A model generated the notes under the pieces. It was given only the letters and a program-made list of their open reading frames with translations, was not told where the DNA came from and ran no database searches. A DNA stretch of 64,000 bases from Bizionia paragorgiae (lineage in GTDB: Bacteria > Bacteroidota > Bacteroidia > Flavobacteriales > Flavobacteriaceae): NCBI RefSeq assembly GCF_900107625.1, contig NZ_FNQK01000004.1, positions 1-64,000 of the forward strand. Direction: 5' to 3'. Within the stretch, counting starts at the first letter, position 1; each line of letters starts with the position of its first letter. This document shows, one piece after another, positions 39,015 through 41,121 of this stretch. The position numbers and the translations under genes were made by a program.

Positions 39015-39440
39015 ATGATTTCCATTCCCAAACATAAACAACTGATTTTATTTGATGGCGTCTGCAATTTGTGTAATTCGTCTGTTCAGTATATTATTCG
39101 TCAGGATAAAAAAAACACCTTTTTATTTGCGGCATTACAAAGTGACCTAGGGAAAGCGCTTTTAACGCAATACAAAATAGACAGAACGAAAACAGATTCT
39201 ATACTCTTATATGTACCCGAAAAAGGTGTGTTTTCTAAATCTACAGCGGCTTTACACATTGCAAAACACCTTGGCTTTCCAACCCAATTATTAGTAGTGT
39301 TTTTGGTTGTGCCTGCCTTTATACGAAATTTAGTGTATGATTTTATAGCTAGGAATAGATATAAATGGTATGGTAAAAAGGATCATTGTATGATTCCTAC
39401 TCCAAACTTGAAAGCTAAGTTTATTGACCAAACCCCATAA
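39015..39440 (+). CDS. DCC-family thiol-disulfide oxidoreductase-like protein (DUF393)
   Basis: 141 residues. LILFDGVCNLCNSSVQYIIRQD has the Asp-Gly-x-Cys-x-x-Cys motif of the DCC family, followed by FLFAALQSDLGKAL and a C-terminal KYRWYGKKDHC-like region. The CxxC suggests redox activity, but substrates are unknown. One base separates it from the MutS2-like gene, so they share a transcript. Confidence 0.9.
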   Translation: MISIPKHKQLILFDGVCNLCNSSVQYIIRQDKKNTFLFAALQSDLGKALLTQYKIDRTKTDSILLYVPEKGVFSKSTAALHIAKHLGFPTQLLVVFLVVPAFIRNLVYDFIARNRYKWYGKKDHCMIPTPNLKAKFIDQTP

Positions 39441-39507: not shown

Positions 39508-39753
39508 CTAGCTTATTTTGATTGTACCGTCTTCTGATGAAATCAATTTGATATACATAACCTTATTATAATTTATAATATCAATTTCATCCAGCTTTTT
39601 AATACCTTTTACGTCAATAACGTAAGATTCAGTTAAAGTCTGGTTTGTTTCTTCTGTATAAATAGACTCATTAGATTTAACAGTATCGTTAACCTCCTGA
39701 GCAGTTGCGAAAGAAGCGAATAATAATAAAAATAATGTAGATAAAAATTTCAT
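39508..39753 (-). CDS. Small exported protein of unknown function
   Basis: 81 residues with a clear signal peptide (MKFLSTLFLLLFASFATAQ). The mature part is about 62 residues, acidic, with predicted strands (ESYVIDVKGIKKLDEIDI, KVMYIKLISSEDGTIKI). No family recognised. Periplasmic location is likely. Confidence 0.75.
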   Translation of the reverse strand: MKFLSTLFLLLFASFATAQEVNDTVKSNESIYTEETNQTLTESYVIDVKGIKKLDEIDIINYNKVMYIKLISSEDGTIKIS

Positions 39754-40083
39754 TTGTTTGGTGTATACTATTTATAACACTATAAAGATAAGGGGGTTAA
39801 AAAGTTAAATAGAATTTAATCGATGAAAGACCTAAGAATTTGATTAACACAGTAAATGTGCTAATTTTATCGATGAACAACATCTGTATACTTAAACTAT
39901 GTTGTATTTATTTAAGGGACACTAATTACAACATTATAAGCGCTTTACAATTCTAAATTCCTAAATGGCTATTCAACTAGTAAGATAGCTACACTTGTAA
40001 AAGCATACACTTTACGTACTAAAAAGTCCAGTTTACGAAATATGATTTTAATCGCTTGCTATTATCTTCTATATTCACAGTAC
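39754..40083. other. Gene-free stretch upstream of the candidate small RNA
   Basis: I see no coding frame with coding character here. A weak -7-like TATATTCA lies at 40070-40077, just before the structured RNA candidate, without a -33 box at normal spacing. The rest appears featureless. Confidence 0.4.
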
Positions 40084-40231
40084 AGAAGTCTCAAAATATA
40101 ACTAATTAACTTAACCCCAATTTCTGTTAATTGGGAATGAATTAAGTTCTCTTAAAGACCATAGTCTACTCTTTAAAAGGTTCTAAGCATTGCGATTAGA
40201 AAAAATTAATCTGTATTTTGAGACTTTTTTT
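40084..40231 (+). ncRNA. Candidate structured small RNA with closing stem and terminator-like T run
   Basis: A perfect 13-bp stem joins AAGTCTCAAAATA (40086-40098) to TATTTTGAGACTT (40214-40226), followed by TTTTT. Between the arms are further stems: ATTAA/TTAAT (40105-40109 with 40206-40210), CCCAATT/AATTGGG (about 40115-40134), GAC/GTC around 40157-40167, and CTAA/TTAG (about 40183-40199). A multibranched RNA of about 145 nt ending at an intrinsic terminator would explain this, and the T run fits only the plus strand. It is not recognisable as 6S, tmRNA, SRP RNA or RNase P by eye. There is no coding frame. Confidence 0.5.
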
Positions 40232-40290
40232 AAAGCAACACGCTTCATTAATCTTCAATCTAAAAAGCTTAAGTAAACGACCTGAGAAAT

Positions 40291-41121
40291 TTAGGGTTTT
40301 AGGGTTCCATATTCGGTCCAAGACCCATCGTAAACTTTAGTCTGTTTAAAATCGGCTACCTCTGCTGCTAAATCTAAAATGCAGGCCGTTAACCCAGATC
40401 CACAAGAAAATACTAGCGTATTATTCTTAGGGGTTACGCTGTTAAACAAACGTACTAACTCCTCTTTTGGTTTTAATTTACCTTCTACTAAACACCTTTC
40501 AAAGGGTAGGTTTTTAGAATTTGGAATGGTACCACTTCGCAATCCCTCTCGAGGTTCTGGAACTTCACAGCGAAATCGCTCAGCACTTCTAGCGTCAATA
40601 ATAGTATGTTTTTCACTTTGAGATAGGACGTCTAGATCCTTGAAATACGTTACCCTATCAGGATTAAAAACCGCCTTAAAATCACCTTTGGGCTTACTGT
40701 TGTTTCCCTTTGGCTCTGTAGGATAATTTTGCTCAATCCAAGCCGGTAAACCACCATCTAAAATAGCACTATTAGCGTGACCAAAAGTTTTAAAAAGCCA
40801 CCATACGCGTGCACTTGAATAGACACCTTTATCGTCATAAACCACAATGGCACTGTCTGAGTTAACCCCTAATTTTCTAGCTTCCTCTTGAAATTGTGAA
40901 GCGGAAGGAATGGTATTAGGAAAATCACTTGACAGGTCACTAAAACGCCCTTTCAAATTAAAAAATTGTGTATTTGGAAGCTGCACTTCTGATGAAACAT
41001 TTTCGTTTTGAGCAGTCACTTTAACCATGCTCGCATCAAAAATTAAAAGGTTTGAAGCGTTTAAATTTTCCCGAAGCCAATCGGCAGACACAATAGGGCT
41101 AGAAAGTGATAGTTTAGACAT
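40291..41121 (-). CDS. Thiosulfate/3-mercaptopyruvate sulfurtransferase
   Basis: 276 residues with two rhodanese domains. The first (SADWLRENLNASNLLIFDAS, VVYDDKGVYSSARVWWLF) is inactive; the second carries the catalytic loop FSCGSGLTACI. CGSG(L/V)T is the loop of mercaptopyruvate-type enzymes. It transfers sulfane sulfur to cyanide or thiols. It ends about 60 bp from the candidate RNA, and the symporter gene lies just upstream on the same strand. Confidence 0.93.
   Translation of the reverse strand: MSKLSLSSPIVSADWLRENLNASNLLIFDASMVKVTAQNENVSSEVQLPNTQFFNLKGRFSDLSSDFPNTIPSASQFQEEARKLGVNSDSAIVVYDDKGVYSSARVWWLFKTFGHANSAILDGGLPAWIEQNYPTEPKGNNSKPKGDFKAVFNPDRVTYFKDLDVLSQSEKHTIIDARSAERFRCEVPEPREGLRSGTIPNSKNLPFERCLVEGKLKPKEELVRLFNSVTPKNNTLVFSCGSGLTACILDLAAEVADFKQTKVYDGSWTEYGTLKP

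Follow-up and report, generated by a model that had tools for sequence, protein, structure and literature searches.

The first 64,000 nucleotides of contig NZ_FNQK01000004.1 of Bizionia paragorgiae (hereafter the window) almost certainly carry a genuine plus-strand gene for a structured RNA, judging by covariation among relatives. As modelled, this RNA is ~144 nt long (40086-40229, plus strand; the ends are those of the covariance model). It very probably belongs, as far as sequence comparison tells, to a family that is not in the Rfam library searched.

Architecture of the RNA element

The element lies in a gap of 537 bp separating two ORFs, 39508-39753 and 40291-41121, both on the minus strand. 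Its closing stem is perfect over 13 bp, 40086-40098 (AAGTCTCAAAATA) being the exact reverse complement of 40214-40226, and seven T's on the plus strand (40225-40231) close the 3' end of the ~144-nt structure. The stem, the T run, and the gene-free gap with its minus-strand flanking genes had been noticed in a preliminary description drawn from the letters of the sequence, and all of them stood when the complement, the gap, and the ORF strands were recomputed. Of 2000 dinucleotide shuffles of this gap, 8 contain a perfect inverted repeat of at least 13 bp with arms no more than 160 nt apart. The genome of B. paragorgiae holds a single copy of the element.

Across 39 elements (see next section), the family folds as a four-way junction in which two hairpin tips are conserved, namely UYCNGUUA in P2 and GUCWA in P3. 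The closing stem P1 (5' arm, 40086-40098; 3' arm, 40214-40226; plus strand) covaries across the family, and so do the hairpins P2, P3, and P4 that it encloses. P2 (40108-40148, plus strand) is made of a lower helix (40108-40114/40142-40148) and an upper helix (40116-40122/40129-40135), with a one-sided bulge on the 3' side and a hexaloop (40123-40128) lying inside the conserved TYCNGTTA, a motif present in 33 of the 39 elements. Taking sequence and structure together, CC...TYCNGTTA...GGA is found in 32 of them. P3 (40149-40179, plus strand) pairs 40149-40158 with 40170-40179 around a loop (40159-40169) that harbors GTCTA at 40164-40168; GTCWA is found in 35/39 elements. P4 (40181-40201, plus strand; helix 40181-40186/40196-40201) has a variable loop and differs in sequence and length across the family. 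Runs of at least four T's across the 3' end are observed at 31 of the 39 loci. A loop-loop contact between P2 and P3 (GUUAG/CUAAC), judged by eye, fails in the window copies and was dropped.

Folded on its own, the plus strand of the window copy gives z = -3.8, with none of 200 shuffles equally stable. The reverse strand is more stable (z = -6.9), and the minimum-energy fold of the plus strand contains the closing stem with an interior unlike the family consensus. The fold of a single copy is thus misleading as to both strand and interior, which are settled by comparative data.

Conservation, covariation, and strand

A DNA search of 99 genomes, including that of B. paragorgiae, retrieved the element from two other Bizionia genomes (G001 and G002), together with two further matches of 25-26 bp in G028 and G054. 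Exact 14-mers were found in 6 of 397 genomes, three of them the genus members and the others represented by L013-L015. Among the three genus members, mean column identity reaches 91% in the element vs 73% over ~0.6-0.7 kb including it. Placed on the four-way junction, these three sequences have 97.3% of cells paired and a two-sided change in 7 of the 50 pairs, and all three pairs varying on one side only give G-U on the plus strand.

A covariance model of the three genus members (R1), run on 60 genomes, added four genera through strong matches (E <= 3.5e-9), two copies being present in two of these genera. Matches left out of modelling were L023/L026 (tandem-repeat array), L027, L028, and others weaker than L022. 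The array at L023 (G015:C23) consists of long units with a weak model match and is, judging by its sequence, an unrelated repeat. A nine-sequence model (R2), in which 37 of 50 pairs show two-sided change, was searched against 397 Flavobacteriaceae genomes and places the RNA in at least 36 genomes, at least 26 of 237 genera, and at least 39 places (E <= 3.3e-10); these counts are lower bounds, with eight candidates scored per genome and 361 genomes without a match. Each genome carries one or two copies. The threshold removed the reverse-strand matches to the same places (23 of 62). One of the 39 copies, L102, is counted but doubtful, having the lowest score and neither GTCWA nor a synteny marker. 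The window copy scores 158.6 bits with R1, 132.6 bits with R2, and 118.9 bits with a further model, R3, and is itself part of all three training sets.

When fitted to the model, the 39 sequences display two-sided change in 46 of 50 pairs, and 90.8% of their cells are paired, vs 69.3% for shuffled and 28-53% for slid controls. A stem not conserved in relatives was one of the two outcomes that the preliminary description named as refuting it; the stem is in fact kept at 39 loci, with compensatory changes. When 20 of the 39 were aligned free of the model (MAFFT/RNAalifold), P1, the two parts of P2, and P3 came out again, with compensation in 26 of 35 pairs; P4 was not recovered from these 20 sequences. 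With regard to strand, the fitted 39-copy alignment holds 132 G-U vs 33 A-C cells, which points to the plus strand. The plus strand is also the more stable fold in 32/39 copies, the window copy not being among them. The ~145-nt plus-strand small RNA first put forward from the letters alone is thus supported by covariation and by the preference for G-U over A-C cells.

A contig scan with a 20-base pattern produced 44 stretches. Among the 12 of them included in an R1 search of 25 sources in all, only L047, from Bizionia saleffrena and at the same place as L003, is strong. For nine of the 44, the complete genome was searched with R2, and three of these nine genomes contain matches, all weak (E 0.06-0.46). 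In an order-level sample of 148 genomes and 63 genera, the genome of B. paragorgiae is the sole match among the 21 genomes listed, 10 of which belong to genus g151, and this sample says little on other families.

Gene neighbourhood

The RNA occupies a common address. At 34 of the 39 loci, at least one marker gene of the same neighbourhood is found, the markers being mutS2, a DCC1-like gene, a DUF4139 gene (which we take to be MuiA-like), MATCAP (PF08014), a rhodanese gene, and a dicarboxylate symporter gene. The common layout reads mutS2, DCC1-like gene, RNA, and convergent genes. In the window, the upstream synteny marker is a DCC1-like thiol-disulfide oxidoreductase gene (39015-39440, plus strand; PF04134). 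The next gene upstream of the RNA lies on the opposite strand (39508-39753, minus strand) and encodes a secreted-looking 81-aa protein without a Pfam match. The downstream neighbour is a convergent rhodanese-like sulfurtransferase gene (40291-41121, minus strand; PF00581). The 81-aa protein is kept in place in the three Bizionia genomes, and relatives of it are encoded near the RNA in L090 and L101.

The downstream neighbour is convergent in 37/39 loci, its stop codon often overlapping the T run. Because of this gene order, a cis-regulatory leader or riboswitch is disfavoured. In eight of the 39 loci, the window among them, the gene before the RNA is read from the opposite strand, and at these eight the RNA therefore cannot belong to its 3' UTR.

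Upstream direct repeats and putative regulator

Upstream of the window copy, two direct repeats, TTTACGTA and TTTACGAA, start at 40011 and 40032, that is, 21 bp apart (40011-40039, plus strand), and form a putative LytTR-type operator, to which a weak third copy may be added at 39990-39997. They are the only 21-bp pair with at most two mismatches to TTTACGNA on either strand of the 64-kb window, and similar repeats are aligned upstream of the RNA in both G001 and G002. Thirty loci possess a testable upstream region, defined as 70 nt or more of non-coding sequence. Counted free of any motif, 9 of these 30 regions contain a 9-nt stretch matching at eight or more positions 21 bp on (mean 0.76 and maximum 3 in 100 composition-only shuffles), and other lags between 12 and 33 give 0-2. 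The pair TTNACTCA occurs at 21 bp in 19 of the 30 (mean 0.57 and maximum 3 in 60 shuffles) and at neighbouring periods in 2-5 of the 30, the motif having been read off the same loci in which it was counted and the shuffles keeping base composition only. At a tolerance of three mismatches, this pair is absent from 11 of the 30 loci, including the window and G001 (four mismatches each) and three copies at a second address. A TAnnTTTG-like -7 box is found in the last 50 nt of 24/30 regions, a mild enrichment (mean 16.8 and maximum 23 in 200 shuffles); the last 50 nt before the window copy hold no TAnnTTTG within one mismatch.

The second address lies beside a signal peptidase II gene and accounts for three copies, L019, L021, and L096. 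By eye, these share another block, GAATTAGCCTTTA ... ACCTACCTT, at most ~160 nt upstream. Because the TTNACTCA repeats are absent and this other block is common to them, the second-address paralogue seems to be controlled differently.

Genome-wide, the TTNACTCA pattern exceeds its reversed control in all eight genomes counted (70 vs 26 summed, the RNA's own sites included). The excess is largest in G402 (15 vs 5) and G235 (23 vs 6), and slight in G261 (4 vs 3) and G010 (5 vs 4). The Bizionia form TTTACGNA, at no more than two mismatches, is unenriched in the genome of B. paragorgiae (41+23 vs 66+59 in controls) and also below control in both congeners. In G402, G235, and G007 (L112, L128, L140-L149), TTNACTCA-like pairs or triplets, 21 bp apart, precede many genes. 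For a chosen set of repeat sites, the genes that follow appear by eye mostly secreted or envelope-associated, and the pattern suggests that the repeat-bearing genes may constitute a regulon.

All 16 genomes checked, each of them RNA-bearing, encode an orthologue of a particular LytTR response regulator, which in B. paragorgiae lies at G000:C23:34622-35374. The regulator is encoded beside a repeat site in the congeners G402 and G235, and a LytS-type kinase is seen in G235. These two are the only ones of the 16 genomes with repeats within 1.5 kb of that regulator, which is not above other spacings (20 bp: 2; 23 bp: 4). Since AraC-type proteins can also use such repeat spacing, LytTR is the leading guess for the regulator class, from the shape of the operator. 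As described in PMC11347149, LytTR domains bind operators made of direct repeats spaced by about two turns of the helix, and according to PMC4227749, AgrA binds direct repeats upstream of promoters, the promoter-proximal ones being centred near -60.

The DUF4139 host gene

A DUF4139 gene lies upstream of the RNA in 11 loci, and in nine of these the RNA starts 5-17 nt past the stop codon of that gene. This 3'-UTR form does not apply to the window copy, and the 537-bp gap contains no detectable DUF4139 remnant. Of the 11 DUF4139 genes, eight have a 21-bp TTNACTCA pair in front of them, namely six of the nine adjacent ones and two with a wider gap (mean 0.53 and maximum 3 in 100 composition-only shuffles). 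The remaining three are L206, without repeats, L200, cut by a contig end, and L208, for which the region read was that of another ORF. Two DUF4139 genes beside the RNA (L020:1643-3133 and L024:1646-3136, minus strand) have CarboxypepD_reg-like and TonB plug domains inserted within DUF4139.

Locus L080 can be compared with that of a congener (G047; L202/L076). The DCC-side sequence and the first DUF4139 codons align at 76% identity, after which the alignment jumps to the last 43 codons, a C-terminal stub, followed by the intact RNA. One repeat pair is visible on the DCC side and a further pair between the stub and the RNA. Because this internal deletion of ~650 codons spares the repeats and the RNA, the protein has, in at least this case, been lost and the RNA kept.

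Comparison with known RNA families

Rfam 15 gives no match at gathering threshold over the 64-kb window. The element with its flanks has seven matches at E <= 10, all far below the family thresholds, and the element in nine further loci (one of them, L023, unrelated) gives nothing at gathering threshold. The Rfam comparison, which the preliminary description had suggested with Bacteroidota 6S models in mind, thus returned no family for the window and located 6S RNA elsewhere: 6S-Flavo (RF01685) is on another contig (G000:C39:158763-158888, 101.3 bits), with no match at the present locus, and a 6S identity was rejected. 6S-Flavo also lies on contigs different from that of the RNA locus in both other genus members. 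ARAGORN reports no tRNA or tmRNA in the window, and 40000-40290 is without a match in the phage collection, which set aside these two origins. A Flavo-1 RNA (RF01705, 52.3 bits, above gathering) is found at L022:2946-3011, ~1.3 kb from the RNA. The literature searches brought up no description of the present RNA in the portions of text that they covered.

Proposed function and alternatives

The structure of the RNA, its conservation and strand preference, the synteny, the repeats before the RNA or its host gene, and one host-gene deletion are directly supported; from them we infer a scheme for its expression, regulator, processing, and action in trans. By analogy with VR-RNA and RNAIII, the balance tips slightly towards a regulatory RNA that would combine LytTR-type control with trans action. 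The ~145-nt plus-strand RNA would fold into the four-way junction, P1 being closed by its ends around the hairpins P2, P3, and P4, and would end at the T run. A LytTR-type response regulator, bound to the direct repeats with 21-bp spacing, would activate its promoter. With a DUF4139 gene between repeats and RNA, the RNA would be made as an mRNA 3' UTR and presumably cut out, and with this gene absent, it would be its own transcription unit. It would most likely act in trans, the P2 tip UYCNGUUA and the P3 loop GUCWA being exposed to mRNAs or to a protein, and may adjust expression alongside the other genes that carry the repeats, many with products of secreted or envelope-associated appearance. 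More tentatively, and with the odds rather against so complete a picture, a single LytTR-type regulon in part of the Flavobacteriaceae may include a trans-acting cloverleaf-like RNA at a fixed address, borne in a 3' UTR or, after loss of the protein gene, free and made from a promoter of the same kind; the RNA, and not the protein, would then be what the locus conserves. If so, this would be an sRNA caught gaining independence from the mRNA of its host envelope protein.

The next most likely reading after the LytTR-controlled trans-acting RNA, and a doubtful one, is that the RNA binds a protein, as a scaffold, a sponge, or a polymerase- or ribosome-associated RNA, with P2 as the protein site. 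P2 is constant in sequence and structure (32/39) beyond what a pairing seed alone would need, and the closed multibranch form speaks in the same sense, but zero Rfam families match the element, and it is found in one or two copies per genome, many with an apparently regulated promoter. Less probable still is a purely terminal role, in which the structure would protect or end the mRNAs of convergent genes, as their 3' end or as a terminator working both ways, and have no function as a free RNA. Such a role would go with the convergent downstream gene in 37/39 loci and its stop codon often overlapping the T run, with the nine copies starting 5-17 nt past a stop codon, and with the T run in 31/39. 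A terminator, however, has no need of conserved loops, and an intrinsic one was rejected, the T run following a stem that encloses ~115 nt of other structure and not a short G+C-rich hairpin. The opposite-strand upstream neighbour in the window and seven other loci leaves no upstream mRNA needing an end there, the RNA survives the loss of most of the host ORF in L080, and repeats stand directly before the RNA in many lineages.

Homology to Rfp18 is very unlikely. This F. psychrophilum sRNA, needed for normal protease mRNA levels, comes from the same bacterial family and is, as described in PMC9723704, strongly structured, with at least three stem-loops. The same account gives it as widely conserved in the genus Flavobacterium, whereas R3 finds only three weak matches (E 1.8e-4 to 0.0097) to the present RNA among 101 Flavobacterium genomes (the genus taken as that which includes F. 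plurextorum), 32 candidates having been scored in most genomes; the two RNAs are set apart here by description, not by direct alignment. A DNA-level element, whether a MITE (small transposon) or a repeat able to form a cruciform, can be given hardly any credit. The long terminal inverted arms would suit it, but the element is present once in its own genome, the arm sequences change with pairing kept, a common neighbourhood surrounds it at 34/39 loci, and one-sided changes favour G-U over A-C, a preference relevant to RNA and not to DNA; a MITE was rejected on the single copy and the covarying arms.

As a one-address RNA covarying across 26 genera, the element would offer a tractable sRNA for other flavobacteria: a promoter switch is predicted, both conserved loops are open to mutation, and loci that have or lack the host protein gene form natural comparisons. 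The L080 deletion makes the passage from a 3'-UTR RNA to a free gene directly testable in a congeneric pair. The genus Flavobacterium, one species of which is the source of 85 newly named RNAs (PMC9723704), appears to be without the present RNA.

Relation to known regulatory systems

Two regulatory RNAs resemble the LytTR-controlled trans-acting RNA proposed here, namely RNAIII, which is larger and encodes a peptide, and VR-RNA, whose regulator VirR we take to be of the LytTR kind. 21-bp direct repeats upstream of the RNA, by which such control would be recognised, are found at 19/30 loci (9/30 when counted motif-free), and in the window at 40011/40032. In Clostridium perfringens, a response regulator drives VR-RNA via two spaced promoter repeats (CCAnTT, 15 nt, CCAGTT), and the 5' and 3' ends of VR-RNA are predicted to pair, according to PMC4963840. 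Unlike the flavobacterial RNA, VR-RNA is 386 nt long (PMC4963840), belongs to Firmicutes, and has a known regulator, that of the flavobacterial RNA being deduced from operator shape. RNAIII of Staphylococcus aureus depends for its transcription on AgrAC, as stated in PMC4963840, and its LytTR regulator AgrA uses direct repeats upstream of promoters (PMC4227749). It comes from a different phylum, and the likeness drawn here is one of control logic.

6S-Flavo, a long RNA closed by its ends, occurs in the same bacteria; unlike the present RNA, it lies on another contig in the three Bizionia genomes, and RF01685 has no match at the RNA locus. RcoM1 and CoxC, whose hosts belong to a different phylum, have operators that control protein genes, unlike the flavobacterial RNA locus. 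As described in PMC11347149, these operators are composed of three direct repeats two helical turns apart, those of RcoM1 being TTCNNGCA at 12-13 bp intervals. The stretch TTCACTCA of the RNA-family repeats agrees by eye with the TTCNNGCA given there for RcoM1 at 5/6 specified positions.
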